Shown piece after piece: positions 3,084 through 18,430 of a DNA stretch of 64,000 nucleotides. The stretch is from Tateyamaria omphalii (GTDB lineage Bacteria > Pseudomonadota > Alphaproteobacteria > Rhodobacterales > Rhodobacteraceae): assembly GCF_014651375.1 (NCBI RefSeq), contig NZ_BMWT01000001.1, positions 1-64,000 on the forward strand, in the 5' to 3' direction. Under the pieces are notes generated by a model. It saw only the letters and a list, made by a program, of their open reading frames with translations, had not been told where the DNA came from and ran no database searches. Positions within the stretch are counted from its first letter, which is position 1. Each line of letters opens with the position of its first letter. Both the position numbers and the translations under genes were made by a program.

Positions 3084-4120
3084 GCAGGGACCTCTTGGAG
3101 ACCGTTGACGATAGCGCGGAAAGCTGGACGGCTATCCCTCCCTTCTTTGGGCACGCCGAAAATCTGGAAGATGAGTGACCCATTTTTGTCAAATGCCTCA
3201 ACTGATGTCGCGGTCCCGCGTTGCGTCGGCTTATCGACAGCCCAAACCTCCGACACGTGATCGCGACGCAGATGCAAGTTGAAGCCCGGATCCATCACGT
3301 TCTGCCAGGGGCTCATGGGTCTCAGCGTATGTAACGCACCCGTATGAATCTGTATGCAACCGCGATTGCCTACAAACAACATCACTTCGGTGCCGGAGCT
3401 TTGCAGATTGGTGAGCAGTGCATCTACTGCCTCTGGCGCGAGTTTCCGGACAAATGGGCGGCCAGCAGCCCGATAGGCACCAAGGCGGTTCATCTTGAGT
3501 TTGGATACAAGGCGCAGGAACTGATGCGTGTCCGTCATCCGCCTCCATTCCTTGCGCAGGACGTCGACCTTGTCCTTCGCAATCTTGGCAGGTTCGGCGG
3601 GCAGGCGTTGCGTGAATTGTTCTTTTGTAGATTGATTGTCGGATGCCAGCGTTTCCGTCATCTTCTTGAACGCGTCGTGGTTTGATCCGCCCCGCAAAAT
3701 GATTTTGTGCACCGCGTCACCGGCGCCATCAAACACCTGAATGCTGCGCCGTGGGCCTGAGTCGCTGTCCCGCTCAACCATAAAGGCGTGCCTCCAGTAG
3801 CTGGGAAAGATACGCAAATCAATGTCTTCGGTCAGGATCATCGCAGCGTGCTGGCCCGGGTGATAGTTGTCGTAGATACCTACTTTCTCATGCACACATG
3901 ACGCATTGCGAGTGAGTGCCATCACCTCGCTCAGCTGTGTCGCCGCGTTCATGATGACATCCGGATGCGCGTCAATGCGGGTCACACCCATACCGCAATA
4001 TGCAGCAACCAATGCCGCTTCGCTTATTCCAAGTGTTTCGGCAAAATCCCGTTCTCTGAGTTGAGGTGACTCAGCGCGGCGATCACGGATGTCTTCCGGA
4101 GAGAGTGTCACATCTTGCAC
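3080..4120 (-). CDS. hmuS: Haemin-degrading/haem-trafficking factor HmuS
   Basis: This cytoplasmic protein of the HmuS/HemS/ChuS family (346 residues, the normal two-repeat length) receives or degrades imported haem. Two related halves are visible. Each contains a V.LFVGNRGCIQIH-like or V.HEKVGIYDNYHPG-like strand followed by W-rich segments: FPSYWRHAF in the first half, WAVDKPTQRG in the second. It is the first gene of hmuSTUV and starts 230 bases from the divergent TonB receptor gene, so the shared intergenic region probably carries an iron- or haem-responsive control site. The assignment is by recognition of the family pattern and gene order. Confidence 0.9.
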   Translation of the reverse strand: MQDVTLSPEDIRDRRAESPQLRERDFAETLGISEAALVAAYCGMGVTRIDAHPDVIMNAATQLSEVMALTRNASCVHEKVGIYDNYHPGQHAAMILTEDIDLRIFPSYWRHAFMVERDSDSGPRRSIQVFDGAGDAVHKIILRGGSNHDAFKKMTETLASDNQSTKEQFTQRLPAEPAKIAKDKVDVLRKEWRRMTDTHQFLRLVSKLKMNRLGAYRAAGRPFVRKLAPEAVDALLTNLQSSGTEVMLFVGNRGCIQIHTGALHTLRPMSPWQNVMDPGFNLHLRRDHVSEVWAVDKPTQRGTATSVEAFDKNGSLIFQIFGVPKEGRDSRPAFRAIVNGLQEVPA

Positions 4121-4350
4121 GTCGCCTAATCCCGCTCAAATAGAAGAGTACTTGCATACGGCTGGGCCAGATGGCGTGGCTAGGGTGCAGTTCTTGATTA
4201 AATTAGTCGGATTGTCGTCACGGCGCAATGGTATGACGCAAAAATTCTTTACTTCTTTTGTCGGGATATATATCCATGACGCCGACGCGCGCCCCACCCC
4301 CGATTTGGCAGGCCCCGTGCTGCCAATTGGGATGGAAAGTGGGGAATTCT
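4121..4350. promoter_or_regulatory. Divergent promoter region between hmuS and the haem receptor
   Basis: This 230-base non-coding stretch separates the two oppositely transcribed haem-uptake units and must hold both promoters. An AT-rich core, TTGATTAAATTAGTC, sits at about 4194-4208. It is a plausible place for an iron regulator (Irr, RirA or a Fur-like protein in Rhodobacterales), but it matches no consensus I can assert. Just before the receptor start, GTGGGGA at about 4339-4345 serves as ribosome binding site. Confidence 0.5.
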
Positions 4351-6423
4351 ATGCAGAGACGCATTCTTGGGGGCGTGGCAATATTGGCCGCGTGCGCAAA
4401 TTCAGTTCAAGCGCAGGAAGAGCCATTTGAATTGCCGCCTTTGGTCCTCGGCACTGCTCTCAGAGATAACCGTAACATCCTTGATACGCCGGTCGCCGCG
4501 ACGGTGATTGAGGGTGAAGAGCTCGAAGAACGACAAGCGGATACTTACGAAGAACTGATAGGTGATGTCCCCGGGGTTCTGATTGGGGGCGGTCCGCGCG
4601 GGGTTGCACAAGAACCGAACATCCGCGGTTTTCAAGATGAACAAGTTGTGTTGCGGCTGGATGGAGGACGGTTGAACTTCAATCGCGAACACAGCGGCCG
4701 CTTCTTTTTTGATCCTGATATTGTGCAGCGTGTCGAGGTGGTCAGAGGCGGCGGATCGACATTGTTTGGATCCGGAGCGATTGGTGGTGTTATTGCAGTT
4801 GAGACAAAAGATCCGTCCGACCTACTGCGCCCAGGTCAGACCACCGGCGCGCGCCTGCGCTTTGGCTATACAGACAACGGTGAAGTCTACAGCCCCAGTA
4901 CGACGCTCTATGGAGATTACGGCGCCTTTGATGTGCTGGCGTTTCTAGGTGGACGTGAGGCAGGCACGGATCAAGATGACGGTGATGGCAACAACATACT
5001 GCGATCAGAGGTGGATGCATTCAACGGCTTGTTGAAGTTCGGATTTGAACCGAACGAAGATCAGCGGTTCGAACTGAACCTTTCCTACTTTGAAGATGAT
5101 GGGCGTATCCCGCCAAACGCCAATACCATTGCCAATCTTGATCCGGACAGTGGGAATGATTCTGACCGTTCGTCCGAGATCTTTACCTACAGGCTGTCTT
5201 GGGATTGGAACCCAGACAACTCAGACCTGATCGATCTGTCTGTATTGGTGTACGGCAATACGCTTGAGATACAGGATGACCGCGTCCGGGATGGCCGCGC
5301 CGACTTTACTGAATATGATACGATTGGCTTTGAGGTTGTGAACCGGTCTCGGTTCGACCTCGGCGTCCCGGTCAGCTTGGTATACGGGGTCGAGGCGTTT
5401 CGCGACGAGCAGACTGGGACGCGCAACGGTGCAGCAAGAACACAGTTTCCAGATGCAGAAGCGACCACTATTGGTGCGTTTGCTGAAGCGACATTTGGTG
5501 TAACGGACCGTTTAGACCTTATCGCCGGCCTCCGTTTTGACAGCTATGACCGTGATGTCGATGATCCGGCATTGGCAGATGTGGATGACGATTTCTTCTC
5601 GCCCCGCATTGGGTTCAGTTTCCGACCGAATGACAACTGGCAGGTTTTCGGCAATGTCGCACGCGCGTTCCGTGCGCCGACCCTAACCGAACTCTACAAT
5701 GATGGGGTGCACTTTGCCTTTGATGAAATCCCGCTTGGCCCACCGGGAACTCCACTAACTGAAATCACGAATAACTTTGTGCCAACTCCGGACCTGGAAC
5801 CGGAGGAATCGACGCAAATCGAGATTGGTACACGTTTCGAGAAAGCGAATATGTTCCGACCGGGTGACGTGTTGCGCTTTTCGGCAAATGCCTACTACGC
5901 CGATGTCGAGAACTTCATCGACACGGTGGTGACAGGACCGGATTTCTCGCGCCTTGCACCACCCAATCCGACCACGGCGTTGGGTGACACGTTCCAAAGG
6001 AATGTGGACGCCGAGCTGTATGGCTTCGAGGCTGAGGTAGATTATGACGCGGGCAATTGGTTTGGCGGCTTGGCACTGTCCCTTGCGGAGGGGAAATCGA
6101 AAGAGCCAGGCGACGAACTGGGATCAATTCCGCAGTCTCGTCTGATCGCGACACTCGGTTATCGCCCGACAGCAGATTGGACCGTCGGTGGTCGTGTGAC
6201 CTTTGCCGGTGATCAAAATGATGTGGCTGCAGGAGGGCGTGCGGGAGATTCATACACAGTGGTGGATTTGTTCGGGTCATGGGCACCGTCACAAGGACCA
6301 TTTGAAAATGCAGTATTCCGCGCAGGCATCGATAACATTTTTGACGAGCAGTATACGATTTTTCCCAATGAGCTGCCGCAGCCGGGGAGATCAGTTAAGG
6401 TGTCGGCGACGTTTGAATTCTGA
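4351..6423 (+). CDS. hmuR: TonB-dependent haem/haemoglobin receptor (HmuR type)
   Basis: This outer-membrane receptor imports haem using TonB energy. The start at 4351 gives 690 residues beginning with a clean signal peptide, MQRRILGGVAILAACANSVQA, cleaved after about residue 21. An upstream in-frame start would add 31 residues unlike a signal sequence. The plug domain (about 45-165) shows RGF..Q and VEVVRGGGSTLFGSGAIGG. In the barrel the haem-receptor FRAP box is present as AFRAPTLTELY at about 440, followed some 35 residues later by TPDLEPE in the position of the NPNL motif. The protein ends in FEF, a typical barrel terminus. It lies divergent from hmuSTUV. Confidence 0.92.
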   Translation: MQRRILGGVAILAACANSVQAQEEPFELPPLVLGTALRDNRNILDTPVAATVIEGEELEERQADTYEELIGDVPGVLIGGGPRGVAQEPNIRGFQDEQVVLRLDGGRLNFNREHSGRFFFDPDIVQRVEVVRGGGSTLFGSGAIGGVIAVETKDPSDLLRPGQTTGARLRFGYTDNGEVYSPSTTLYGDYGAFDVLAFLGGREAGTDQDDGDGNNILRSEVDAFNGLLKFGFEPNEDQRFELNLSYFEDDGRIPPNANTIANLDPDSGNDSDRSSEIFTYRLSWDWNPDNSDLIDLSVLVYGNTLEIQDDRVRDGRADFTEYDTIGFEVVNRSRFDLGVPVSLVYGVEAFRDEQTGTRNGAARTQFPDAEATTIGAFAEATFGVTDRLDLIAGLRFDSYDRDVDDPALADVDDDFFSPRIGFSFRPNDNWQVFGNVARAFRAPTLTELYNDGVHFAFDEIPLGPPGTPLTEITNNFVPTPDLEPEESTQIEIGTRFEKANMFRPGDVLRFSANAYYADVENFIDTVVTGPDFSRLAPPNPTTALGDTFQRNVDAELYGFEAEVDYDAGNWFGGLALSLAEGKSKEPGDELGSIPQSRLIATLGYRPTADWTVGGRVTFAGDQNDVAAGGRAGDSYTVVDLFGSWAPSQGPFENAVFRAGIDNIFDEQYTIFPNELPQPGRSVKVSATFEF

Positions 6424-6439
6424 ATTTGAACCACATGCC

Positions 6440-6475
6440 GATCGGGAGGGTGGGCAGCACCTGCTCTCCCGTCCT
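6440..6475 (+). terminator. Possible hairpin terminator after the haem receptor
   Basis: About 20 bases after the receptor stop, GGGAG pairs with CTCCC and encloses an inner GCAG/CTGC stem. No clean T run follows, so this is only a weak candidate for an intrinsic terminator. Confidence 0.3.
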
Positions 6476-6567
6476 CATTTCGTTGCGCAGTTGCCAGGTG
6501 GCTCAACTTCTGCAGTTGAAGTATCTTATTAATTCTGTCAGGTATTATTTACCCAGCTGGAGGTACG

Positions 6568-6855
6568 ATGCTGTCCTGCCCGGTAGAACTGCGATGCGAA
6601 GCCGTTGAGCGTGCTTCGAAACCGAAAGCTGGACAAATGACGATTCTAAACGACTTGCTGCGCATAGATGCAGCTGCACGTGAATACGGGTGCGGGTTGA
6701 AACCCGGAATGCGTGAGGCCCTTGCGGCTGATCTTCGGTGGCCAAGCAAAAGGGCCGCGCCTGTTCCTGTTGCGCCAGTTGATCCTGACGGCTTCTCGGA
6801 AAACGTGGTGCGGTTGGGACCATCCCCAGAGACGCGGGAGGAGAAACAGGCATGA
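6568..6855 (+). CDS. Uncharacterised small protein in the haem locus
   Basis: This 95-residue soluble protein belongs to no family I recognise. A good ribosome binding site, GGAGG at 6559-6563, supports the ATG at 6568. The N-terminal half, with MTILNDLLRIDAAAREYG, looks helical. The C-terminal third is rich in proline and charged residues. Its stop overlaps the start of the next gene in an ATGA junction, so the two are almost certainly translated together. Position right behind the haem receptor suggests a linked role, but nothing in the sequence shows haem binding. Confidence 0.6.
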   Translation: MLSCPVELRCEAVERASKPKAGQMTILNDLLRIDAAAREYGCGLKPGMREALAADLRWPSKRAAPVPVAPVDPDGFSENVVRLGPSPETREEKQA

Positions 6856-7340
6856 ACTTGACGGCACATGTGGCCGGTCGAAATGACCTTGATGCCCACA
6901 GTCTTGGCCTGGACGAATTTGAGCGGGGGCTGTTGGCGGTGTCCCGCTATTTCTTTCTTTGCCGTGCAGAACCCGACCGTCAGGCGTGGCAAGTTGCTTT
7001 TTCCGTCGCGGTCGAACGCTGGGGGCCGGATATCGGTTTGCCGGTGGCCTTTGCGGCATCCAAGCTGGTGCGAGCGCTGGCCGATTTGCGGCCGGATTTT
7101 GACAGCCTTGATCCATTTGAAACCGAGGCCCGAACTCGCGTGAGCAGTGACGAAGCGATGATGATGCGGATGCTTCATCACATGCGCCGCGATCAAACGT
7201 CCGATGCAAGAGATGCCGTAGATGCCCTGACGCGCGGCTGGATGGACCCGCATGTGATCCGTGCTGGTTTGGCGCTGGCATCGCGGTTCGCGGCCGGAGT
7301 GTCGGAGCGTCGACGCCCCGCGCTACGTTTGGTCCGATAG
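6852..7340 (+). CDS. Uncharacterised protein of the haem locus
   Basis: This 162-residue, mostly helical cytoplasmic protein was not recognised. It has a tryptophan/arginine-rich centre (SRYFFLCRAEPDRQAW at about 31-46), a run of methionines with histidines (MMMRMLHHMRRDQ at about 101-113), and an arginine-rich end. There is no signal peptide or membrane segment. It starts within the stop of the preceding gene (ATGA) and is followed almost directly by the GNAT gene, so the three appear to be one operon behind the receptor. The Met/His cluster could bind a metal or haem, but that is speculation. Confidence 0.6.
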   Translation: MNLTAHVAGRNDLDAHSLGLDEFERGLLAVSRYFFLCRAEPDRQAWQVAFSVAVERWGPDIGLPVAFAASKLVRALADLRPDFDSLDPFETEARTRVSSDEAMMMRMLHHMRRDQTSDARDAVDALTRGWMDPHVIRAGLALASRFAAGVSERRRPALRLVR

Positions 7341-7347
7341 GCGTCTT

Positions 7348-8199
7348 TTGCTTCTTGCCGGGTCGGCCTACGCCGCAAACAGTTTCAAGATATGCCCTTT
7401 TTCAGAGATGCATTTAGGTGCGGCACACAGGTTGTCCGCGCAACAGGGTTGGCCGCATGGTCTGGCGGACTGGGAGCAGATGTTTCGCTTGGGCCACGGG
7501 CGTGTGGCGCTGCTCAACGGTCAGGTCGTGGGAACTACTCTGTGGTGGCTGCATGATCGTGCTGCGACCCTTGGAATGGTGATTGTAGATCAAACGCAGA
7601 GAGGACGGGGGATTGCCGGCAGCCTTGTAGCGGACGCGCTGGATCGTATCGGCGATTTGCCCGTGATGCTGACTGCCACAGATATGGCCAGGTCCGGCTA
7701 CGCTCGGCTAGGTTTTAGAAAAACCGGGATGGTGGACACCTTTCGCTCGATCCCCAACGTTGTACAAAGCCCTGATGCCCGTATTGATGCATTATTCGAC
7801 GATGACGTCCTTGCGCTGGACGCCTTAGCGCGCGGATGGGCCAGGGAAGCTGTTCTGCGCAGCTTCATGGCACATGGGGCGATCTGTTGGGCTTTGAAAA
7901 AGGCGGGGCGTCTGGTGGCGTTTGCTCTGGACCGAGAGTTGGGTTCGGCGCGGATTATTGGCCCACTTGTTGCCCCAGATGTCGAAACAGCTGAGGCTTT
8001 GGTGCGTCACTGTATTTCGGTGCATCCCCGCGTTCAGGTGCGCATCGATAGTAATCCTGTGCTGGGCTTGAGTGACCGATTGAGTGCCCTAGGCTTGAAT
8101 AAAGTAAGCTGGGGAACGGTGATGGTGCGCGGTACCACACGAGCGAAGCCGAACGGCGCGCCAATCTTATTTGGACTCGCGAGCCAAGCGTTCGGTTGA
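7348..8199 (+). CDS. GNAT-family acetyltransferase, two-domain
   Basis: This is a likely N-acetyltransferase with a GNAT core. After the first strand, ICPFSEMHLGAAHRLS, come LNGQVVGTTLWW, the acetyl-CoA loop VDQTQRGRGIAGSL and the closing ARLGFRKTG. A second, more degenerate GNAT-like half follows (about 150-283). The stop is certain but the start is not: GTG at 7261 would overlap the previous gene by 80 bases, TTG at 7348 begins just after it, and ATG at 7408 would cut into the first strand. I chose 7348 because it keeps the whole domain. The substrate is unknown. It is the third gene in the run behind the haem receptor. Confidence 0.75.
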   Translation: MLLAGSAYAANSFKICPFSEMHLGAAHRLSAQQGWPHGLADWEQMFRLGHGRVALLNGQVVGTTLWWLHDRAATLGMVIVDQTQRGRGIAGSLVADALDRIGDLPVMLTATDMARSGYARLGFRKTGMVDTFRSIPNVVQSPDARIDALFDDDVLALDALARGWAREAVLRSFMAHGAICWALKKAGRLVAFALDRELGSARIIGPLVAPDVETAEALVRHCISVHPRVQVRIDSNPVLGLSDRLSALGLNKVSWGTVMVRGTTRAKPNGAPILFGLASQAFG

Positions 8200-8480
8200 T
8201 CAAATGGCTTTAGTGCAGTGTCGCAGAGCTGGACACGCAAGTGGGTCCAGCCAAGCAGGGACGTTAGTCCCTTTTGACCTGCAAAAAGTATGACAGGTAA
8301 GAAGGGCGCTGTCCTGGCGACGATCATACTGATTTTCGTGCCGACCCAAAAAGCTTGCCAACCGTTTCGGCTGATGCGTCATCATAGGATGACTACCGTT
8401 TGGTTCATTTCGCAGTAACGTTGATCAAACATGGATAGATGTCGGATTTCTGTCATCTGGGCACGTTTGACTTTGCCAGC
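8200..8480. other. Intergenic stretch with nothing recognised
   Basis: This is the region between two convergent genes. The frames are short and I see no protein family, no tRNA-like fold and no clear hairpin with a T run. Confidence 0.4.
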
Positions 8481-8855
8481 TTAGTCGCAAGATCCACGGA
8501 TCAAATCGGAGTCGTCTGCAACCGGCATCAGCATGTCCATCAACGCAAAACATGCCGACACAGACGGCCCGTCGTCGATTGCATGGGAGACCTGTCTGAC
8601 CAAGAGTGTCCGAGCCGCATCGTGCCCTGCCAATGAAGCGCGCTCAAGATACTGCAAGCCCTGTTCCTTTGTGCGGGTGTCGCACCCGTGTTGGTACATC
8701 CGTTTGCCAAGATGAGCCATCGCCTCGACGTCTCCATTCTCTGCCAAACGTTGTACCGGGTAGTCAGCAAAGCCATTGCAGGATTGGACTTGAGCACCCG
8801 TTAGAGGCCATTTCATTGCGCTCGCGATCACAAAGATTGTGATCAAGAGCATCAT
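8481..8855 (-). CDS. Small exported Sel1-like repeat protein
   Basis: From the methionine pair at 8855/8852 the product has about 124 residues. It opens with a hydrophobic leader, MMLLITIFVIASAM, suggesting export. One Sel1-type helical repeat is visible: AENGDVEAMAHLGKRMY then ERASLAGHDAARTLL. Cysteines are scattered through it (QSCNGF, HGCDT, SACFAL, RGSCD) and could form disulfides outside the cytoplasm. The frame stays open to 9077, but those upstream 74 residues look non-coding. Sel1-like repeats mediate protein contacts. No partner is evident and the gene is isolated between two unrelated neighbours. Confidence 0.6.
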   Translation of the reverse strand: MMLLITIFVIASAMKWPLTGAQVQSCNGFADYPVQRLAENGDVEAMAHLGKRMYQHGCDTRTKEQGLQYLERASLAGHDAARTLLVRQVSHAIDDGPSVSACFALMDMLMPVADDSDLIRGSCD

Positions 8856-9311
8856 ACGCTTCGCCACCGACCTGGAGGTGCGATTCAAACCACCGAGCAG
8901 CATCCGCTCTGGATGTTCCGAGGTGTTTTTCGGCAGGACCAGTTGTGGGATCCTTAAGGAGCACCTGGAAACTGTGTTTGAAGCCAAAGGGGTCAGGCGA
9001 CCCACAGAACTGGCTGCGATTGCAAAAGGTGCGCGTGAATACCCAAGCCTCGTTCGACGCACATGTGTTGTCCCCATTCCTTGCTCCTATGCAGATGCAA
9101 ATGGGGGGTGCCTGGCGATCGCTGAGAATCCCCTTGGGAACAAGTGAGCATTTCCGCGCCGCGCAAGCAATGCCCCAAGACTTGTCACATTGGGGCTTCA
9201 CCTTGTTTCGAAAATCGTTAATGAACAGCGCAGATGCAGGGCATCTGAATTCATTCACATTGAGTACCCAGCTGGTTGCAAGGCGCTCACTCTTTTTCTG
9301 GGAGTGGCCAA
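8856..9311. other. Intergenic stretch upstream of the large repeat protein
   Basis: There is no recognisable gene. The region should contain the promoter of the large plus-strand gene and of the minus-strand Sel1-like gene. A good Shine-Dalgarno, GGGAG at about 9300-9304, closes it. Confidence 0.4.
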
Positions 9312-12300
9312 ATGGGGCGCATATCTACACAAACTATTACCGGGGTTCTGGTCGCAGACCAACGCAAGGATCAGGTGCTGCTTTTGCAAGACCTGGACGG
9401 CGATGGAACCGCGCGGGGACAGGGCGAAACCACAGTCTTTTTTGATATGGACAATGCCAGCGGGCTCGACACACCAACGAACAACGTGTTCACGGTCCAT
9501 CAGGCCGATGATAAATCCGTCTATATCGGCGACGGAACCACAGACGCGATCTATCGCTTGGTCGACAACAACGCCGACGGCGACGCACAGGACGCAGGCG
9601 AAGCGGCAGTCTGGTTCTCGGCAGACAACGCAGGCGGCCTGTCGACGGTGACGCCCAATGGCATTGCCGAAGGCACAGATGGCGCGATCTACATCTCAAA
9701 CGCTGGCACGACATCGGCACCGCAAGACGCGATTTACCGGACGGTCGACCTGAACGGAGACGGCGACGCGAACGATGCCGGAGAGGCGACTGTGTGGCTC
9801 GATCTTCAGACTGTGATCGATACATCCGTGCCCTTCGATCTCAGCTTTGACGGTGACGTGGCCTATCTCAACGATTTGGCGGGAACTGGAACAGATGTCA
9901 TCTATCGCATCGAAGACACAAACGGTGACGGCACCATTCAGACGGACGAGGTCACCAACTTCATCTCGGGCGACATGAGTTTCGGCGCGCCCGTGGACAT
10001 TTCCAGCGCCGTGTCGGTCGATGGCTCGCTCTACACTCTCACATGGTTCCCGGACGGGGACGAACAGCTGAAAATCTACCGCCTCAATGATCTGGATGGG
10101 TCGGGTCAGATCGACAACGTGTTTGAAGCGGTCGAAGTTTGGAACGCAAGCGCCATGCCAGACGGCATTGCGGCCGAGATCGGTTTCTCTCTGGCGACAG
10201 ATGAGGATGGCGGCCTGATCCTTACGGCCAACAGCTTTGCCGGGGATGCGAATGTGGTCCAATTGACGAACCTAAACGGCGACGGAGATTTCTTTGATGC
10301 CGGCGAAACGGCGATCTTCGGATCGGACCAGTATGACGACCAACTGATCCGCCCACGCGCAGTCGAAGCCTACGAAGGTGAAGCCCAGATTGTGGCCAGC
10401 ACCGTGGGCGCGGGCAACCACTTCTCCGTCTTCCTCAGGGACGGTGTCCTCTACAGTTCCGGCGAAAACGTGGTCAGCCAGTTGGGTAATGGAACCACCG
10501 GATTTGACGTGAAGGCACCGTTGCCAGTTTCTTTACCTGAAGGGTTTGATGCTCAAATCACCTCTGTTGCGGGCGGACTGCTGCACACCACCTTCTTGAC
10601 CGATGACGGCGATGTGTACGCCTTTGGCTTCAATAACCGCGGCCCGCTGGGTGTCGGGGACGAAGAGGCACGCACTATGGCTACAAAAATTGATGCGCTG
10701 GACAACGTTGACGTCATAGGAATCGAAAACGGCAATGGCACATCCTTTGCCATCGCGGCGGATGGCACGCTTTACGGCTGGGGCAGCAACACGAACGGAC
10801 AGCTTGGTACAGGGGATCAGGAAGAACGTCTTGTTCCCACCGAAATCAGCGCATTATCCAACGAAACCGTCGTTGCTGTATCCGCAGGCGTGACCCACAC
10901 GCTGATCCTGACGGCAGATGGTGAGGTCTATGGCTTTGGCGGCAACAACGACAATCAAGTCAGTCCGTCTGAAGACCGCCGCGTGACTGAACCAACACTT
11001 ATCGAAGGGTTGCCGGAAAACATCGTGGCGGTCTCAGGTGAAGGGCGCACGTCTTACGCAATCACCTCCGATGGCCGCGTCTTTGGCTGGGGCGAAAGCC
11101 GCGACGGGCAGTTGCTGCAGGGCGAAGACAACGGCGATGGCACGTTCACGCCAAATCCCGAAGATGTGGCTGAACCGATTGAGCTGACAGGATTGCCCGA
11201 AGGTGTGATTGATATTCAAGGCGGCGCGCGGTGGTCTGTCGCGCTGACCGAGGATGGCGATGTCTATGCTTGGGGCCCGAATGACGAAGGCCCAACTGGC
11301 GGGTTGGATGGCGATCCGGCAGCAGAAAGCGATGTCAGCTTCTTGCCGACGCTGATCGTCGAACTTGATGATATTAACATTGTCGAAATCCAGACCGGCC
11401 CCAACTCGATCATCGCAGTAAGCGATACTGGCGCGATCTTTACGTGGGGCTCCAACTCGGATGGGCGCCTTGGCTTCTCCTCGGATGGCTCTGTATATAC
11501 CCCGCGCCAAGTGGACTTTGACGCCGACGCTGCGCCGTTCCTGCTGTCTGCCGTTCCATCAGACAATGGCCGTGATGTGGAAAATGACGCGGCGCTCACG
11601 CTGACGTTCACGGAAGAGGTAGAGGTGGGCGAAGGTCTGATTACGCTGGTCAATCGCGATACGGGCGAACGGATCGAAATCGACGTTACCGACAGCCGTC
11701 TGGTCAGCTTTGATGGTGACACCGTGACCGTCACGCCGCCCTCTCACCTTGACACCGACGCAAGGTACGCGGTCGAGATCGAGGACGGCGCGTTTTTGGA
11801 CGATCAAGGGCAAGCCTTTGAGGGCATTGATGAAGGAGATACATCAACCTTCAACTTCACCACCTCCGAAGAGGCGGCAGAGTCGGAAGATCGCTATCGC
11901 GGAACCTTCGACGACGATCTGTTGCGCGGCGGCGCGGACAATGACCGCATCAATGGACGTGCAGGCGACGATCTGATTTCGGGTGGCGAAGGCAACGACC
12001 GTCTCAGCGGGGGCTGGGGCAATGACGAACTGCTTGGAAACGCGGGCCGTGATCGCCTGAACGGTGGCTGGGGCCGCGACACGTTGGATGGTGGCATGGA
12101 CAATGACCAGCTGAATGGCGGTTGGTCAGACGACCTGCTATTCGGTGGTGAGGGCGACGACCGGCTGAACGGTGGCTTTGGGGACGACACTCTGGATGGT
12201 GGTACTGGCGACGACCGGATGACCGGCGGCTTCGGTACCGACACTTTTGTCTTCAACGGTGGAGATGATCTGATCCAAGACTTCGAAATCGGTTTTGATT

Positions 12301-12491
12301 GGTGCTTCTTCAGCCGCCCCTCCGATCAGATCGTGATAGACATCGAAGGCGCTGACGACTTTGACGATATTGTCGTCAGCGCAAGTCAGTCAGGACGTTC
12401 CGTGACATTTCAGTTTGGTGAAGAAGACAGCCTGACGTTGCGCAACATTAAATTGACGGATCTGGACGCCGACATGTTCAGCTTCGTCTGA
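9312..12491 (+). CDS. Large secreted-type protein with EF-hand-like loops, RCC1 repeats, Ig-like domain and RTX repeats
   Basis: The product has 1059 residues from the ATG at 9312, chosen for its GGGAG ribosome site 7 bases upstream. Part one (1-355) holds at least five EF-hand/dockerin-like calcium loops, for example DLDGDG, DLNGDGDANDAGE and NLNGDGDFFDAGE, between beta-rich segments. Part two (about 356-740) has RCC1-type propeller repeats, recognised by repeated WG or FG motifs with S.GQLG. Part three (about 741-853) resembles an SbsA/Big-type Ig domain with TLTFTEEV and VTVTPP. Part four (about 863-985) carries RTX nonapeptides such as GGEGDDRLNGGFGDD. There is no N-terminal signal peptide, and the C-terminal RTX block points to type I secretion, though no transporter genes are in the window. 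It is probably a surface or matrix protein. Confidence 0.88.
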   Translation: MGRISTQTITGVLVADQRKDQVLLLQDLDGDGTARGQGETTVFFDMDNASGLDTPTNNVFTVHQADDKSVYIGDGTTDAIYRLVDNNADGDAQDAGEAAVWFSADNAGGLSTVTPNGIAEGTDGAIYISNAGTTSAPQDAIYRTVDLNGDGDANDAGEATVWLDLQTVIDTSVPFDLSFDGDVAYLNDLAGTGTDVIYRIEDTNGDGTIQTDEVTNFISGDMSFGAPVDISSAVSVDGSLYTLTWFPDGDEQLKIYRLNDLDGSGQIDNVFEAVEVWNASAMPDGIAAEIGFSLATDEDGGLILTANSFAGDANVVQLTNLNGDGDFFDAGETAIFGSDQYDDQLIRPRAVEAYEGEAQIVASTVGAGNHFSVFLRDGVLYSSGENVVSQLGNGTTGFDVKAPLPVSLPEGFDAQITSVAGGLLHTTFLTDDGDVYAFGFNNRGPLGVGDEEARTMATKIDALDNVDVIGIENGNGTSFAIAADGTLYGWGSNTNGQLGTGDQEERLVPTEISALSNETVVAVSAGVTHTLILTADGEVYGFGGNNDNQVSPSEDRRVTEPTLIEGLPENIVAVSGEGRTSYAITSDGRVFGWGESRDGQLLQGEDNGDGTFTPNPEDVAEPIELTGLPEGVIDIQGGARWSVALTEDGDVYAWGPNDEGPTGGLDGDPAAESDVSFLPTLIVELDDINIVEIQTGPNSIIAVSDTGAIFTWGSNSDGRLGFSSDGSVYTPRQVDFDADAAPFLLSAVPSDNGRDVENDAALTLTFTEEVEVGEGLITLVNRDTGERIEIDVTDSRLVSFDGDTVTVTPPSHLDTDARYAVEIEDGAFLDDQGQAFEGIDEGDTSTFNFTTSEEAAESEDRYRGTFDDDLLRGGADNDRINGRAGDDLISGGEGNDRLSGGWGNDELLGNAGRDRLNGGWGRDTLDGGMDNDQLNGGWSDDLLFGGEGDDRLNGGFGDDTLDGGTGDDRMTGGFGTDTFVFNGGDDLIQDFEIGFDWCFFSRPSDQIVIDIEGADDFDDIVVSASQSGRSVTFQFGEEDSLTLRNIKLTDLDADMFSFV

Positions 12492-12504
12492 CAAACAAAA
12501 GGCT

Positions 12505-12524
12505 GGAGCCGCATGCGCGGCTCC
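12505..12524 (+). terminator. Hairpin after the RTX/RCC1 gene
   Basis: A perfect 8-base inverted repeat, GGAGCCGC / GCGGCTCC, with a 4-base loop lies 13 bases past the stop. No T run follows, so it may be a terminator or only an mRNA-end stabilising hairpin. Confidence 0.5.
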
Positions 12525-13171
12525 CGTCTGCAATTGGCTACTGTGCTCTGGTAACGTGAGTCATGGTTGATTTCAGGCTTCCCAAACAAAGTGCATCAGA
12601 CAAAAACACTGGTGCTTCGAAAGATAGAAATTACAGCCCTCACAGAACGTGGGACAATCGAGTTAACAAAGGCTGGTTTTACTGACTATTCTGCAGTCAG
12701 GCTGCCGTTCATCTATTTTCTGCAATTTTCAACGTTACTTTTCGGATAAGGCAACGGGTCACTGAAGTGTTCTGTAAGTCGGTCATTCCCAATCCATTGG
12801 CAAGCAAGCCTGTGTAACTATTGCTCCAATGTCTGCTTAACCTACTCATCACCGAGTGTTCCACACACCCAGCGAAAGCCCGATTTCCGCCCGCCCTTTT
12901 GGGGATGTCGTCCCTACGCGCCTGCGACCCTGTCGAATTGTGTTGCACTTGCTGCCCCCAACCCTTGTCAGGAGCAGATTTCAAAAAACAAACGCCCTAA
13001 GATGCGCCAGTTGGAAAAATGTCTAAATCTCACGTTGTTAAAGATCAGTTTGGCGACACCTCTCAGGAGCGGTCATTCAACCAGCCTGCAGCAAGGGTCC
13101 GGTTTTGAGCCCATCTTGCAAAATTGCTGTAACGCAGCGAATGTCCGAATGAAGAGTTTGGAGGTCGGACG
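12525..13171. other. Long non-coding stretch
   Basis: This is about 650 bases of lower-GC sequence without a convincing gene on either strand. The open frames are short and show no family motif. It may be a graveyard of a lost gene. Its right end carries the GGAGG ribosome site of the next gene. Confidence 0.4.
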
Positions 13172-13507
13172 ATGATTTTGGAAATTCGCCACTACACGCT
13201 TAAGGCGGGGCGACGAGAAGAGTTCATCGAGTTCTTTGAAAAAAGTAACCGGCAGGCGCTTCGTGACGCGGGAATGCTGGTCTTCGGACCGCTTCGTGAC
13301 CTCGAACATCAAGACAAAGTTCATTGGATTCGAGCCTTTGCGTCAATCGAAGAGCGTGAAAGGCTGAAAGGCTCGTTTTACGATGGCCCCGTTTGGAACA
13401 AAGAAATTGAGCCGGTAGCGATGTCTATGATTGATCAGATGGTGGCAGAACTGACGGAAACGACAGCAGATTTCCAAACCTTTGACGGCAGCAAAGCTCT
13501 AGCGTGA
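13172..13507 (+). CDS. NIPSNAP-family protein
   Basis: This 111-residue protein has the NIPSNAP ferredoxin-like fold. It opens with MILEIRHYTLKAGRREEFIEFF and continues with FGPLRDLEHQDKVHWIRAF and FYDGPVWNKE, the typical pattern of the family. GGAGG sits 8 bases before the ATG. The cellular role of bacterial NIPSNAP proteins is poorly known and no operon partner is present here. Confidence is high for the family and none is offered for function. Confidence 0.85.
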   Translation: MILEIRHYTLKAGRREEFIEFFEKSNRQALRDAGMLVFGPLRDLEHQDKVHWIRAFASIEERERLKGSFYDGPVWNKEIEPVAMSMIDQMVAELTETTADFQTFDGSKALA

Positions 13508-13710
13508 TGCAGTCATTTCAGTTTGAAAACTAAGTGACTACTCAGTCCGCGATGCCGTTAGCCTTCAGACTGCAGATATTCCGCAGACAACCACTTCTAC
13601 TGAGATAGATCGGCTTCCAGCAAATCTCAGCTGCCATATTCTACTTTTGCAGAATTTCATGAGGCGGCCTATGATTTTCAAAGCAAATTCAGAAACCTAG
13701 GTTCAATGCT

Positions 13711-14127
13711 ATGATGGGTCATCCAAAGTTAGCGGCACTTGCGGTCTTGATCAGTGGCAACCGAGTGCTTCTCGTCAACAGGCGCAATGAACCCGACGCG
13801 GGACTGTGGGGGTTTCCGGGAGGGCATGTCGACTTTGGCGAAACCGCAATGGAGGCAGCTTCCCGAGAACTTCAGGAGGAAACTGGCATTATCGCGCGGC
13901 CGCTGCGGTATCTCACAAATGTGGATGTCATTGTCCGCGATGCAGAGGGCGGCATTCAGTTTCATTTCCTTCTTGCAGCTGTGAAGTGTGAGTACCTTTC
14001 AGGCCATCCAAAGGCTCAAGATGATGTAAGCGATGCGCAGTGGCAACCGATTGAAGATGTTTTGTCCGGCAACCTTGAATGCAGTGAACATGTCGATGAT
14101 GTCATTCGGATTGCGACGTCTAAATGA
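13711..14127 (+). CDS. NUDIX hydrolase
   Basis: This 138-residue enzyme hydrolyses a nucleoside diphosphate linked to some group X, with a divalent metal. The Nudix box is complete at about 38-60: GGHVDFGETAMEAASRELQE runs into ETGI, matching GX5EX7REUXEEXGU. The preceding strand, LLVNRRNEPDAGLWGFPGG, resembles MutT/NudG-type members. Two adjacent ATG codons at 13711 and 13714 could both start it. The substrate cannot be told from sequence. It stands alone between NIPSNAP and LysE genes. Confidence 0.88.
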   Translation: MMGHPKLAALAVLISGNRVLLVNRRNEPDAGLWGFPGGHVDFGETAMEAASRELQEETGIIARPLRYLTNVDVIVRDAEGGIQFHFLLAAVKCEYLSGHPKAQDDVSDAQWQPIEDVLSGNLECSEHVDDVIRIATSK

Positions 14128-14132
14128 TCTGT

Positions 14133-14150
14133 CCTTTGCCACCACAAAGG
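14133..14150 (+). terminator. Candidate terminator after the NUDIX gene
   Basis: CCTTTG pairs with CAAAGG around a 6-base loop, just past the NUDIX stop. A run of six T follows about 9 bases later, at about 14159-14164. It is a moderate candidate for rho-independent termination. Confidence 0.45.
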
Positions 14151-14187
14151 TCCTAAGCTTTTTTGCAAACTCGTTTTGGAGGTTTCG

Positions 14188-14811
14188 ATGATTGGTGAAG
14201 TGAATCTGTTGGCCATAATGCTAGCCGCACTTGCCGCCAGCCTGAGCCCCGGACCTGCGTCGCTGGCCATTGCTGGGACGTCGATGGCACGTGGACGTAA
14301 TGCGGGTCTTTTCCTGACCGCAGGGATCATGGTTGGATCGCTGGCCTGGTCTATTGCCGCCGCACTTGGTCTGGGAGCAATTATGCTCGCAAACGCTTGG
14401 GTGTTTGAAGTCATTCGCTACGCTGGCGCCGCTTACCTGATCTTCCTGGCTTGGAAGTCCGCGAAGTCTGCATTGTCCAAAAAGGTAATTATAACGAAGA
14501 CCGTTGGCGGTGGTCCAAAAACCCTGATCGCGAGAGGGGCAGCTCTTCACATCACAAACCCCAAGTCGATCTTGTTTTTCGGGGCGCTCTATTCACTCGG
14601 CATGCCGCCTGATGCAAGTGCCGTCCAGCTGGCGATTGTTGTGGCCGCCGTAGGTGTGCAAGCGACGGTTGTCTACGCAGGTTATGCGATCCTCTTTTCC
14701 GCGCCCTCAATGACACAACTCTATGTGCGGTTGCGCAAATGGTTTGAGGGCGTTTTTGCGGTAGGTTTTGCATTTGCAGGCTTCAAGGTCATCACCGCGC
14801 GCTTGCAGTAA
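14188..14811 (+). CDS. LysE-family amino acid exporter
   Basis: This inner-membrane exporter of the LysE/RhtB family has 207 residues and about six membrane segments. The family landmark LSPGPASLAIAG is near residues 19-30, and the segment FEVIRYAGAAYLIFLAWKS near 72-90 is typical. ITNPKSILFFGALY marks the second half. The ATG at 14188 has GGAGG five bases upstream. A TTG start 12 bases earlier is less likely. It exports an amino acid or related metabolite that the sequence does not define. It converges on the SDR gene with only 18 bases between stops. Confidence 0.88.
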   Translation: MIGEVNLLAIMLAALAASLSPGPASLAIAGTSMARGRNAGLFLTAGIMVGSLAWSIAAALGLGAIMLANAWVFEVIRYAGAAYLIFLAWKSAKSALSKKVIITKTVGGGPKTLIARGAALHITNPKSILFFGALYSLGMPPDASAVQLAIVVAAVGVQATVVYAGYAILFSAPSMTQLYVRLRKWFEGVFAVGFAFAGFKVITARLQ

Positions 14812-14829
14812 AGTTGTCGAACAGTTGGT

Positions 14830-15582
14830 TCAAAGGCCACCCGCGACCGTCAGAGTCGTCCCCGTGACGAACTTCGATTGGTCTGAAGCCAGCCATAACG
14901 CCGCTTCGGCAATGTCTATTGGATCGGCAATGCGCCCCAGCGGTGTCATCGCGGCAATACCAATGACCCGGTCGGGATTGCCATTTGCCGCATGTATCGT
15001 TGTGTCAGTCGTACCAACTCTGATTGCATTCACGCGGATACTGGCAGAGGCGAGCTCTTTGCCCGCCCCGATCGTTAGCGTTTCAATCGCGCCCTTTGAT
15101 GCCGCATAGTGAACGTACTCATGCGCACTGCCAAAAACGGCGGCTTGCGATGACATGTTAACAATTGTGCCGCCCGCACCACCATGCGCCGTCGACATGC
15201 GCTTGATTGCTTCCTGAATGCAATAAATCGGACCAAAAACATTCGTTTCAAAGGTTTGAGACAAAGCCTCGGAGGAAAGATCTTCCATGAGTGTAGAACT
15301 GCCGATGATACCCGCATTGTTTATGAGACAGGACACGACCCCAAGGCCTTCATCGCATCGCTTAAAAAGGTCCGCGACACCCTCTTTGCTTGAAACATCG
15401 GCCTTTGCGATCAATGCCCGTGCACCAGAAGCTTCGCAGTTATGCGCAACGGCCTGTGCACCTTTTTCGTCAGCCAGATAGTTAATGCAAACATCATAGC
15501 CGTTCTTAGCAAACAGCCTTGCGACCTCTGCACCGATCCCTTTGCTGGCTCCTGTCACAAGAGCAATGCGCCTGTCCGCCAT
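14830..15582 (-). CDS. SDR-family oxidoreductase (FabG-like)
   Basis: This is a short-chain dehydrogenase/reductase of 250 residues. It shows the cofactor loop TGASKGIG at 10-17, NNAG at 88-91, the catalytic serine near 144-145 and the YAASK motif with Tyr159 and Lys163. Arg/Asn-rich surroundings of the first strand (INYLADEKGA) suggest NADP. The substrate is unknown. It is the distal gene of a tight minus-strand run, thiM remnant then cupin then SDR, with 2 bases between cupin stop and SDR start. It is therefore probably transcribed from the promoter that also makes the TPP riboswitch. Confidence 0.88.
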   Translation of the reverse strand: MADRRIALVTGASKGIGAEVARLFAKNGYDVCINYLADEKGAQAVAHNCEASGARALIAKADVSSKEGVADLFKRCDEGLGVVSCLINNAGIIGSSTLMEDLSSEALSQTFETNVFGPIYCIQEAIKRMSTAHGGAGGTIVNMSSQAAVFGSAHEYVHYAASKGAIETLTIGAGKELASASIRVNAIRVGTTDTTIHAANGNPDRVIGIAAMTPLGRIADPIDIAEAALWLASDQSKFVTGTTLTVAGGL

Positions 15583-15584
15583 AG

Positions 15585-15905
15585 CTAACCCTTTTCATCA
15601 TCTCTGGACTGAAGCAGCTCGACCTCAACAAAAGCACATTCGAAGTCGTTACCGTTGATCACATCATGTTCCACACCGATTTCGCGAAAATAAGGGACAC
15701 CATTTCGCATCTCGGCTTTGACGCGTTCACAATGGCCTAGATCAATTTCCAAAAATCCATCAAACAGAGGGATGACGACATAGTCATATGCATGTCGGTG
15801 CCAACCAGTGTTGTCGCCGCGTTGTTTAAACCGCCATTCCGTTACGCGAACACGATCATTATCAATCGTCACAGTTGGTGTAGCTGATCCTTTATCAGAG
15901 CACAT
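15585..15905 (-). CDS. Small cupin-domain protein
   Basis: This is a single-domain cupin of 106 residues. The first cupin motif is visible as WHRHAYDYVVIPLFDGFLEI from about 35, with two histidines available for a metal. The second motif is weaker (FREIGVEHDVINGNDFECAFVEVEL). The ATG lies inside the end of the thiM remnant, 11 bases before its stop, with AAGGA upstream. Translation may therefore be coupled to the remnant. The role is unknown, and the SDR behind it is the natural partner to consider. Confidence 0.75.
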   Translation of the reverse strand: MCSDKGSATPTVTIDNDRVRVTEWRFKQRGDNTGWHRHAYDYVVIPLFDGFLEIDLGHCERVKAEMRNGVPYFREIGVEHDVINGNDFECAFVEVELLQSRDDEKG

Positions 15906-16134
15906 TCTGGTTCCTTACTTTTGTTTCATCGCAGCGCGCGAATAGTTCGGCCTGCAAACTCCCGATTTTGATGGTAAACGCCCCGGTAATGGGCGCGAAA
16001 TCAGAAACCTCCTCCGGTGCATGGATCATTGCAGGCGATGCACTAGCCGCGAGGCTCACCGCAACATAGTTTGTGATGCAATGGACAAGCGGCTCTTTCG
16101 CGTGCAGCGATGTTAAAGTGGGGTTGGGTGTCAC
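15895..16134 (-). pseudogene. thiM: Truncated hydroxyethylthiazole kinase (thiM remnant)
   Basis: The 79 residues read as the start of ThiM: LVHCITNYVAV, then SPAMIHAPEEVSDFAPITGAFTI and KIGSL, the same order as in intact hydroxyethylthiazole kinase. Compared with the family, about six residues are missing between the tyrosine-valine motif and SPAM. Everything after about residue 65 (the other two thirds, with the catalytic part) is gone. The frame then ends within the start of the cupin gene. The GTG start has AAGGAAAG upstream and a TPP riboswitch ahead of it. The stub cannot be an active kinase, and it may now serve only as a translated leader. Confidence 0.8.
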
Positions 16135-16171
16135 GCTTTCTTTCCTTTTCTCAACAAACGGAAAGACGCGA

Positions 16172-16188
16172 CAGGCATGTTAAGCCTG
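16172..16188 (-). promoter_or_regulatory. Hairpin between TPP aptamer and thiM start
   Basis: On the transcribed strand CAGGC pairs with GCCTG around a 7-base loop directly after the aptamer. It is a candidate for the expression platform that converts ligand binding into control of transcription or translation. It could also be a short leftover of a larger structure. Confidence 0.4.
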
Positions 16189-16266
16189 ATGTTGCCTCCC
16201 TCCGCCGGCATTATCCGGTTCAGGTTCGAAGGGTGCATCTCAGCCTTGTGGCGCCCCTGACAAAAG
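16189..16266 (-). ncRNA. TPP riboswitch (THI element)
   Basis: Read on the minus strand, the THI-box landmarks appear in order. The P1 half TTGTC pairs with GGCAA about 65 bases later. It is followed by CAGGGGCGCC, then the pyrimidine-sensor CTGAGA at 16243-16238, then ACCTGAACCGGATAATGCC with GGCGGAGGGA, the pyrophosphate-binding side. The element binds thiamine pyrophosphate and normally shuts off thiamine synthesis or salvage genes. Here it precedes a broken thiM and the cupin-SDR pair, about 55 bases upstream of the thiM GTG. Identification is firm from the conserved motifs. Confidence 0.93.
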
Positions 16267-16579
16267 TGAGCGTACGCCTAAGAGAAGCGACGTCAAACAT
16301 TTATTGGTTTGCTGATCTGCCCAAGCCTCTGATCCATCGACATTCTTGAGTGCATGCCGCCGTTGGCCATTGGGGTTGCAAACGCTAGGCCTCTAGGTGG
16401 CGAAATCTGACTGAGCGCCCAGAGTGACGGATGCTGCTATTTGCATGAATGACAGCTTTCGCTGAAAGCAGGCTAAAGAGCGGGATCGCTCAGTCGTGAA
16501 AACATCTCGCTGGGTCGCTGACGGATGAGAATATGTAACCGCAAACGACGAGCCTCTGTGCATTCTAGAGGGAAATGAA
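16267..16579. other. Intergenic region between riboswitch and nitronate monooxygenase
   Basis: This stretch should contain the promoter for the riboswitch transcript (minus strand) and that for the plus-strand gene, whose ribosome site GAGGGAAA lies near 16568-16575. I see no gene in it. Confidence 0.4.
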
Positions 16580-17659
16580 ATGTGGAACTCATCAAAATTC
16601 GGCAAGCGGCTGGGAATTGAACATCCAATCGTACAAGCGCCTATGATTCTTCAGAAACCGCTCGTTGCGCTCGCTTCGGCAGTATCCAACGCAGGGGGGT
16701 TGGGATCGTTAGGATGCGCTGAGATGTCTGTAGACGAGCTTGGCCAGCGTATCGCCGAAATGAAGCATTTGACGGTCAAACCCTTTAATCTAAACTTCTT
16801 TCTACATAGCCAACCAACATTCGATCCCGATCTGGACAAACAAGCCCGTGCGCTTGTAGCTCCGTTCTATCAAGCCCTTGGATTGGACCTTCCTGACAAC
16901 GCCTCGGGGACAGAAGCAGAGACGTTTAACACCGGCAAGCTCGACCTGCTGATTGAACAAGTGCCCGCGATGGTCAGCTTCCACTTCGGTTGTCCCAATC
17001 CCACGGATGTCGACAAACTCAAAGGCGCAGGCATTGTGGTTGCGGCGACTGCAACGACAGTCAAAGAAGCAATTGTATTAGAACGCGCAGGTGTTGACGT
17101 CGTCGTGGCACAAGGGTGGGAAGCGGGTGGTCACCGAGGGTCCTTTGTCTCAGACTACGAGGATGTCGGCATTGGCACCCTTGCTCTTGTTCCGCAAGTC
17201 TCTGATGCGGTTGATTGCTTGGTAGTCGCGTCGGGAGGCATTGCAGACGGGCGCGGAATTGTTGCTTGCCGTGCGTTGGGCGCAGATGGTGTATGGATGG
17301 GCACAGCGTTCCTTACCTGCACTGAAACGCCTATCTCTGACGTTCACCACAACGCACTCATGGTCGCGGCGGATGAAGACACCCATTTGTCACGGGCATT
17401 CTCAGGACGGCCTTGTAGGGCGCGAAGGACACGCTATTCCACACAGCTGGCCCAAGGGCGGCCAGAGTTTCCGGCATTTCCACTGATGTACAACTACAGC
17501 AGCCCGATCAAACGTCATGGAATTGCCGAAGAAGATTTGGAGCATCAGTTTTTGCTGTATGGCCAAGCCGCTGCTTTGAACAAGGAGAGGAGCGCAGAAC
17601 AGCTTATCAAGGCGCTAGTAAAAGAAGTACAGGACTTGGTTACTACAGCCTCAATTTAG
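16580..17659 (+). CDS. Nitronate monooxygenase family FMN enzyme
   Basis: This TIM-barrel flavoprotein of 359 residues belongs to the 2-nitropropane dioxygenase/nitronate monooxygenase family. It shows the N-terminal HPIVQAPM-type motif (IEHPIVQAPM at about 13-22), SNAGGLGSLG near 35-44, QGWEAGGHRG near 178-187 (phosphate and substrate loop), and ASGGIADGRG plus GADGVWMGTAFL in the second half. Members oxidise alkyl nitronates with FMN and oxygen, while some reduce quinones or act on other substrates. It is an isolated gene with its own promoter region. Confidence 0.88.
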   Translation: MWNSSKFGKRLGIEHPIVQAPMILQKPLVALASAVSNAGGLGSLGCAEMSVDELGQRIAEMKHLTVKPFNLNFFLHSQPTFDPDLDKQARALVAPFYQALGLDLPDNASGTEAETFNTGKLDLLIEQVPAMVSFHFGCPNPTDVDKLKGAGIVVAATATTVKEAIVLERAGVDVVVAQGWEAGGHRGSFVSDYEDVGIGTLALVPQVSDAVDCLVVASGGIADGRGIVACRALGADGVWMGTAFLTCTETPISDVHHNALMVAADEDTHLSRAFSGRPCRARRTRYSTQLAQGRPEFPAFPLMYNYSSPIKRHGIAEEDLEHQFLLYGQAAALNKERSAEQLIKALVKEVQDLVTTASI

Positions 17660-17695
17660 CATCGGTGGGTCGTTTCCTCGAACTCCCAAAAGCAG

Positions 17696-17995
17696 TCATT
17701 GGCGCAGGCGCAGCGAAAGCTCAGTTTGTCCCGCGCAGCGGTCACTCAAGAGCCGAAGATGAATGTCCGCTTCGGGGCCGGTAGCGTCTGTCTGGCCCCG
17801 TGTTTCTGCGCCATCGACTTGGCGTTTATCTGATAAAATTTCCGGCGCTGGCGGGCGTATTCCGAGCGCATAATGTGACTGGATTTGGTTGTTTTGTCTA
17901 AGCCAGAGATTGATGGCGAGCTGGGCTTGTTTGGCGCTGTGGAGCCACTCTGCATTCGGAACTTCCCAACGTTGGCCCAGTAGAAGCGACCCGTC
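17696..17995 (-). pseudogene. Transposase C-terminal fragment (IS3-like, integrase core)
   Basis: A minus-strand frame without a start reads GQRWEVPNAEWLHSAKQAQ followed by INLWLRQNNQIQSHYALG and IRPPAPEI. This is the familiar end of rve/DDE transposases related to IS3 elements, where RPHQALGMRPP is usual. The catalytic region is absent and a stop sits directly upstream at 17996-17998, so the gene is dead. No terminal inverted repeats were recognised. The exact IS family would need a database comparison. Confidence 0.7.
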
Positions 17996-18063
17996 TTATA
18001 GATTTGGAGCGGCATGCCTCGACTCCTTCAAAAATCTTGTCGATCCCCCAGCTCCATATGCCG

Positions 18064-18198
18064 CTAGATCGTCCCCTTCGAACACCAGATGCCGGAACCA
18101 TCATCCGAAGCCTTATCCGCAATAAACATGATGATCTGCTTGCGCGTCGCACTCCCAAACTTCTGTTCCGCAAATGCATTTGCCATCCGACAGCTCAT
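18064..18198 (-). pseudogene. Truncated helix-turn-helix protein fragment
   Basis: From the ATG at 18198, 44 residues include ANAFAEQKFGSATRKQIIMF and DKASDDGSGIWCSKGTI. This is the beginning of a winged-HTH type protein of the kind I associate with mobile DNA in Rhodobacterales. A stop ends it in what should be the recognition helix, so it looks like a remnant. Family recall here is from memory of the pattern and is moderately sure. Confidence 0.5.
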
Positions 18199-18353: not shown

Positions 18354-18430
18354 TGGCGACCCCGGCAGGATTCGAACCTGCAACCTGCCCCTTAGGAGGG
18401 GGCTGCTCTATCCAGTTGAGCCACGGGGCC
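18354..18430 (-). tRNA. tRNA-Arg (CCT anticodon)
   Basis: This is a 77-base cloverleaf on the minus strand with encoded CCA. The acceptor GGCCCCG pairs with CGGGGTC (one G-U), the D stem is GCTC/GAGC, and the anticodon arm GCCCC-CTCCTAA-GGGGC puts CCT at 34-36. The T arm is GCAGG-TTCGAAT-CCTGC. It reads the rare arginine codon AGG. The same kind of tRNA is a common integration target, which fits the mobile debris beyond its 3' end. Confidence 0.96.

Follow-up and report, generated by a model that had tools for sequence, protein, structure and literature searches.

A TPP riboswitch and an open thiM stub ahead of a cupin gene and a short-chain dehydrogenase/reductase gene in Tateyamaria omphalii

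A riboswitch usually marks the pathway of the gene that it precedes, and riboswitches commonly serve to infer the function of downstream genes. A locus of Tateyamaria omphalii raises the question of what such a switch governs once its own gene has decayed. In the window—the whole 64,000-nucleotide stretch analysed here—a TPP aptamer is followed on the minus strand (16268-14830) by 45 nt, a 79-codon open reading frame (ORF) related to the start of thiM, a cupin ORF and a short-chain dehydrogenase/reductase (SDR) ORF. The original prediction had placed this locus at 14830-16266; the locus was confirmed and only the aptamer edge moved, as the Rfam model extends to 16268. The features discussed below are:

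16180..16268, minus strand: TPP riboswitch aptamer (RF00059), full length by cmscan at 69.2 bits
16135..16203, minus strand: predicted expression platform, consisting of the aptamer 3′ strand GGAGGGAGG (anti-P1 partner), a small hairpin and a hairpin of the anti-Shine-Dalgarno (anti-SD) UCUUUCC with the Shine-Dalgarno (SD) sequence AAGGAAAG, up to the GUG start; based on folding and dinucleotide shuffles
15895..16134, minus strand: ThiM remnant, a 79-codon leader ORF with GTG start and TGA stop; based on PF02110, TIGR00694 and alignment to intact thiM
15895..15905, minus strand: 11-nt overlap of the remnant 3′ end and the cupin 5′ end, ATGTGCTCTGA, read from the sequence
15585..15905, minus strand: small cupin-like protein, 106 aa, intact; based on PDB profile matches, with Cupin_2 below cut-off
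14830..15582, minus strand: SDR, 250 aa, intact; based on PF13561 and the motifs TGASKGIG and YAASK
17972..18045, minus strand: tyrosine integrase scar, comprising the first 14 codons and upstream sequence; 93% identity over 74 nt to an intact integrase region in the genus relative G014
18354..18430, minus strand: tRNA-Arg(CCT), an integration hot spot by comparison with genus relatives

The aptamer aligned to the whole of RF00059 (model positions 1-105 of 105), above the gathering score of 54.3, and is the highest-scoring of the four TPP riboswitches in this genome. The proposal that it is intact by its conserved motifs was thus borne out by the covariance model, and on this score the aptamer is free of decay. 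Across 13 aligned sequences, 93.8% of cells in 20 helix pairs are paired and five pairs show two-sided change; the structure used derives from the window's own Rfam alignment, and outer helix 1 is just 75% paired. Pair 53:62 has changed on both sides, reading AU in 12 thiM leaders and GC in the window, and by eye it is G-U in the relative G008, which lies outside the 13-sequence alignment.

Between aptamer and remnant, UCUUUCC pairs with GGAAAG in a hairpin that extends to the GUG. The spacing from GGAGGGA on the aptamer 3′ strand to the start codon is 62 nt, compared with 57-65 nt in 12 intact thiM leaders, and the SD window is mostly paired in all 13 leaders (mean unpaired 0.00-0.36). The alternative pairing of GGAGGGA with UCUUUCC (anti-P1) has a predicted probability of 0.90 in a transcript ending before the SD, as calculated at a single fixed cut point with 30 mononucleotide shuffles. 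Among the 12 intact leaders, five are likewise predicted to form anti-P1 (0.66-0.89); in the other seven, near relatives G003 and G005 included, the probability is ≤0.30 and the pairing is not predicted, for which either a different switching mode or an unreliable prediction may account. When the 59-nt platform was shuffled with dinucleotides preserved, the anti-P1 level was reached in 4/400 cases, the hairpin energy in 22/400 and both together in 0/400; on this modelling the platform looks intact, with a two-state design predicted. An intrinsic terminator was rejected as the platform, as none lies between 16268 and 16134; two terminator-like sites fall inside the SDR gene.

How the platform would switch is constrained by equilibrium folding of the full leader, under an energy model that leaves out tertiary contacts: SD and GUG are hidden whether the aptamer fold is imposed or left free, so switching would have to be kinetic, through co-transcriptional folding. 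Unlike six of the 12 intact leaders, in which the start codon is mostly open (>0.5), the window start codon is buried (unpaired 0.00), and the leader could therefore be stuck off. The arrangement resembles the E. coli-type translational TPP riboswitch ahead of thiM or thiC (RF00059) in its aptamer, a possible exchange of the 3′ strand and anti-SD, and an SD/start hairpin; it differs in that thiM is here a 60-residue stub, followed by a cupin and an SDR without a known thiamine role. TPP repression with co-transcriptional folding has been described for thiC in E. coli (PMC5234074), and strand exchange between the aptamer 3′ strand and the anti-SD has been described as well (PMC10907184). A predicted TPP aptamer need not be active: those of diatoms proved unresponsive to thiamine (PMC9544697), a point against the reading of TPP control given below.

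The ORF behind this leader matches only the beginning of ThiM: positions 1-63 of 247 in PF02110 (50.6 bits) and 1-64 of 249 in TIGR00694 (48.7 bits, below the cut-off of 256.4 for full-length ThiM). Aligned with 12 intact thiM genes, its GTG falls on their ATG and it carries an in-frame 18-nt deletion (six residues). Clear similarity stops at remnant residue 60, equivalent to ThiM residue 66, and the final 19 codons show no clear ThiM match. Of the 34 columns that do not vary among the intact proteins, the remnant has lost eight: the GTG start accounts for one, the deletion for four and substitution for three. The same test applied to each of the 12 intact proteins gives 0-2. Judged by these losses, the remnant cannot be a working kinase, and its frame is still open: a decayed enzyme within an open ORF.

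The remnant runs into the next gene much as had been predicted: the cupin ATG lies inside its last codons, in an 11-nt overlap (15895-15905, minus strand), and the SDR (15582-14830, minus strand) starts 2 nt past the cupin stop. A leader of comparable kind precedes ppe2 of M. tuberculosis, where a leader ORF (uPPE2) behind a B12 riboswitch is translated and experiments show ppe2 to be made mainly by termination-reinitiation (PMC11260477). In both loci the stop of the leader ORF overlaps the next start; ppe2 differs in having a B12-class switch, an AUGA overlap and proven coupling, whereas the window has a TPP-class switch, an 11-nt overlap and predicted coupling. The ppe2 leader is not known to be an enzyme fragment, in contrast to the ThiM fragment here. 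A search of the open-access literature (titles and abstract openings) found no case of a TPP riboswitch and truncated thiM coupled to unrelated genes, and passages of PMC2258182 and PMC10907184 make no mention of one.

The most likely reading, to which we give a probability of roughly 0.6, is that the cupin and SDR genes would be under TPP control through termination-reinitiation at the stub. The beginning of a thiMED-type operon (riboswitch, first ~66 thiM codons and presumably promoter) would have been joined to the cupin gene with the SDR gene behind it, near the tRNA-Arg hot spot, severing the cupin from its own upstream sequence and leaving the open-frame thiM stub to serve as a translated leader or ‘landing pad’. 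In the absence of TPP, GGAGGGA would pair with the anti-SD UCUUUCC and leave the ribosome site of the stub open; the stub would be translated to its TGA, 11 nt into the cupin gene, with reinitiation at the cupin ATG and, likewise, SDR reinitiation behind the cupin. With TPP bound, the aptamer would reclaim its 3′ strand and the anti-SD would sequester SD and GUG, so that the stub would stay untranslated and cupin-SDR expression would drop. We infer a promoter upstream of the aptamer, a response to TPP, the coupling itself and a benefit to the cell. As the stub leads into two genes with no apparent relation to thiM, the old switch probably governs a new pair of genes. The idea of rewiring was part of the original prediction, and the anatomy agrees with it: aptamer, platform better than shuffles, overlapping or abutting ORFs and loss of the upstream motif of the cupin (below); TPP control itself is predicted by folding models.

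A different answer would be that both proteins have a part in salvaging or degrading thiamine, making TPP control meaningful, as the usual agreement between riboswitch and pathway would imply. The proteins themselves are as follows. The cupin scores 14.4 bits (E 0.031) against Pfam Cupin_2 (PF07883), below the gathering cut-off of 27.2; profile searches matched it to two PDB chains whose entries call them hypothetical/uncharacterized, 2fqp (E 6e-36) and 3lag (E 1.8e-29), and to 9u8n, ‘Cupin type-2’ (E 8.9e-6). The motifs HRH and EHDVIN are invariant across the window cupin and three homologues (four sequences). Against the closest match listed, pN is 0.06 and pS 0.77, indicating purifying selection overall. 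The SDR belongs to the SDR superfamily, scoring over cut-off against PF13561 (174.9 bits) and PF00106 (155.3 bits), and has TGASKGIG and YAASK, which we take to be the SDR cofactor and YxxxK motifs. Its best NCBIfam model, PRK06123, gives 273.1 bits, below the cut-off of 383, and it matches PDB 8bci at E 1.4e-66.

Homologous loci offer little that ties either gene to thiamine. Cupin relatives comprise at least 465 confirmed stretches, mostly Alphaproteobacteria by record title and up to 90% identical, of which the best 80 were studied with flanks of up to 6 kb. Within these best 80 of at least 465, none had thiM, thiE, thiD or tenA in the flanks at E 1e-5, none had a TPP element by blastn or covariance model, and none had a window-type SDR; a different SDR (26-33% identity) lies near the cupin in five, and the most widespread neighbour family reaches at most seven. 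The seven closest SDR relatives in the family sample share 50-63% identity with the window protein, and Agrobacterium plasmids bear SDRs of ~63% identity. None of the 29 family loci fetched (~1.5 kb flanks) has this cupin next to the SDR homologue. A conserved cupin-SDR operon elsewhere was rejected, given 29 SDR loci without the cupin and 80 best cupin loci without a window-type SDR. The TPP-model search covered 12 of the 29 SDR loci; a weak match (18.8 bits, E 0.047) lies near an SDR homologue in G023 (L143:3659-3714, plus strand). What speaks for a thiamine role is that in thiMED operons of G003 and G005 an SDR gene lies within ~30 nt of thiD (tblastn match edges), but those proteins are of another subfamily (PRK08642, above cut-off) and 32% identical to the window SDR. 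Set against the missing thiamine genes and TPP elements and the want of any neighbour family common to the cupin loci, this leaves a thiamine role improbable, and the corresponding suggestion of the original prediction with little support.

Signals immediately before the cupin bear on whether its expression would depend on the stub at all. An SD-like AAGGAA for the cupin sits within the remnant, and the sequence AAAAGTAAGGAACCAGA-ATG is similar by eye to AAAGGTGAGGAATTGCG-ATG of the closest listed homologue, and the cupin gene may therefore have arrived with an SD of its own. Farther upstream, at -57 to -71, TGG[CT]NCTA occurs in 15 of 76 homologues among the best 80 of at least 465 (e.g. L056, L057, L060, L062; omitting L069, L108, L115 and L127, whose match began past residue 1) and in nine of the 13 closest listed; shuffles gave a mean of 0.84 and a maximum of 4 of 76. 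A looser pattern, TGG-N(1-2)-CTAT, occurs in 17/76 (shuffle mean 0.77, maximum 5); both patterns were picked after viewing the data, with a mononucleotide shuffle as control, and some loci are close kin (three from Pseudovibrio). Our guess is that TGG[CT]NCTA is part of a promoter or operator, possibly for some regulator. It is absent upstream of the window cupin because ThiM coding sequence occupies that place. An internal promoter directly before the cupin, with no thiamine response, had been named as evidence against rewiring; a scan restricted to sigma-70-like sites found none on the minus strand of 14700-16800. The same scan gave no such site ahead of the aptamer either, which counts against the upstream promoter that TPP control would require.

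These observations cut both ways for the view that the locus is no more than a scar of recombination where the DNA is variable. Riboswitch and stub would then be leftovers, or shut off for good, and an internal promoter would drive the cupin and SDR genes without regard to TPP. The integrase scar and hot spot nearby would fit such a relic, as would the confinement of the arrangement to the window genome among those searched, the decay of the stub as an enzyme, the SD-like sequence of the cupin and the deeply buried start codon of the stub. It has to contend with an undecayed aptamer score and two-state platform, with the lack of a sigma-70-like site on the minus strand of 14700-16800, and with the missing upstream motif of close cupin homologues; we consider it the less likely of the two, though the main competitor to TPP control by way of the stub.

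The source of the stub can be narrowed by comparison within the genome and genus. The other three TPP riboswitches of the genome head thiB-thiP-thiQ-like genes, an intact thiM-thiE-thiD-tenA operon (with tenA scoring just below cut-off) and an ABC transporter, which has weak family support and may be read as a thiamine-precursor transporter. The complete thiM with its own TPP riboswitch lies on another contig, so the window stub is an additional broken copy. The original prediction of a natural target reduced to about 65 residues with an internal loss therefore stands as regards the gene fragment (~60 aligned residues, six lost), but an intact thiM operon exists elsewhere. PF02110 thiM was present in six of 20 genus genomes, counting the window genome, and the intact thi operon of G004 adjoins the same aminotransferase gene as in the window genome (86% identical), which suggests a shared site of the operon. 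The window aptamer is 92-94% identical over 65 nt to thiMED or thiD leaders of G001, G003, G005 and G008, and 88% identical over 68 nt to the thiM-operon copy of its own genome. Between stub and own thiM, synonymous sites are saturated (pS 0.88), and such pN/pS values say little on selection after the join. Recent duplication of the own thiM operon was rejected on account of this saturation and the closer aptamers of G001, G003, G005 and G008. Identity of the stub protein to the own ThiM (60.0%) and to those of G003 (62.1%), G005 (60.6%) and G323 (66.2%) is such that the sources are not separable on this basis alone.

A query of aptamer plus stub against 394 family genomes (about one per genus, two first-look candidates scored per genome) gave 13 matches at E 1e-15 or better, the window genome included. 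Behind the aptamer stands thiM in 11 of the 12 others and a transporter-like gene (by eye) in one (G286); the window arrangement is repeated in none of these 12. It was found in no other genome examined, and because no relative keeps it, selection on the arrangement cannot be shown. No plasmid place covered 80% of the locus and no viral contig exactly matched one 40-base junction string; plasmid or viral carriage was rejected on these grounds. A defence function was also rejected, PADLOC giving no match for four proteins including the cupin and SDR. The PRK08642-type SDR genes that follow thiD in G003 and G005 occupy L050:3759-4499 and L052:3636-4376, respectively, both on the minus strand.

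Junctions seen in no other genome, plasmid or viral contig searched are also what an assembly artefact fusing unrelated fragments would produce. The original prediction had allowed for this, should relatives carry a full thiM; some relatives do so behind thiMED leaders, and the locus itself occurs in no other genome examined. The junctions lie inside a contig of 1,137,679 bases (1.14 Mb), in a genome assessed at 100% completeness and 0.75% contamination, and intact frames, an SD-like sequence and a stop/start overlap would presumably be rare outcomes of a random join. An artefact is scarcely credible.

Relatives show thiM decaying in other ways behind a surviving riboswitch. In G008 (L051:6171-6569, minus strand), an in-frame chimera stands behind the riboswitch, with ~14 codons from the start of thiM ahead of the last part of thiE (132 codons), and the TGA of this chimera overlaps the ATG of thiD (ATGA). 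In G001, thiM and thiE are absent, and the leader is followed by thiD, which has an SD-like sequence to itself. Such decay therefore appears recurrent in the genus, and in two genomes, that of the window and G008, what it left is a stub whose frame is open and whose end overlaps the start of the following gene. The G003 and G005 thiMED leaders and the decayed G008 leader share with the window 92% aptamer identity over 65 nt each and a similar start context, and G008 resembles it further in that its stub keeps the frame and overlaps the gene behind; they differ in having thiamine genes behind the leader, which in G008 is still thiD. It is possible, and we put it forward tentatively, that thiM decay across the genus repeatedly leaves a riboswitch with an in-frame stub that captures whatever genes are joined to it, the window being a capture and G008 an intermediate within the thi operon. 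A vitamin-B1 sensor would then come to govern unrelated metabolism via translational coupling. If control through the stub holds in the window, a switch outliving its gene would show RNA control re-assigned through a simple join and would counsel caution in riboswitch-based annotation; the locus offers a small concrete system for asking whether coupling via a decayed enzyme stub suffices to transfer vitamin control.

The surroundings indicate where such a join could arise. The tRNA-Arg(CCT) lies ~2 kb from the aptamer, and the DNA to its right is conserved across all 20 genomes of the genus, the window genome among them. To its left, 10 of 19 genus relatives were compared over ~9.5-18.7 kb each: the conserved block has its left edge at 18037-18088 in five of the 10, and window positions 1-17964 share no DNA with any of these 10 at E 1e-6. 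Three of them (L225, L226, L227) share 74-82 nt with the window at 17965-18045, a segment with which an intact phage-type integrase begins in G014. L226 and L227 also repeat 47-50 nt of the tRNA end exactly; the window has no second copy of that end longer than 14 nt. Unshared left-hand DNA and the integrase scar place the locus in a turnover region, in which turnover probably proceeded through integration. Elsewhere in the window, positions 369-6423 hold ABC transporter genes, a periplasmic binding protein and a TonB-type receptor, by eye a heme-uptake-like cluster, and positions 9276-12491 (plus strand) encode a 1071-aa protein with, by eye, RCC1-type-like repeats followed by GGxGxD calcium-binding repeats.
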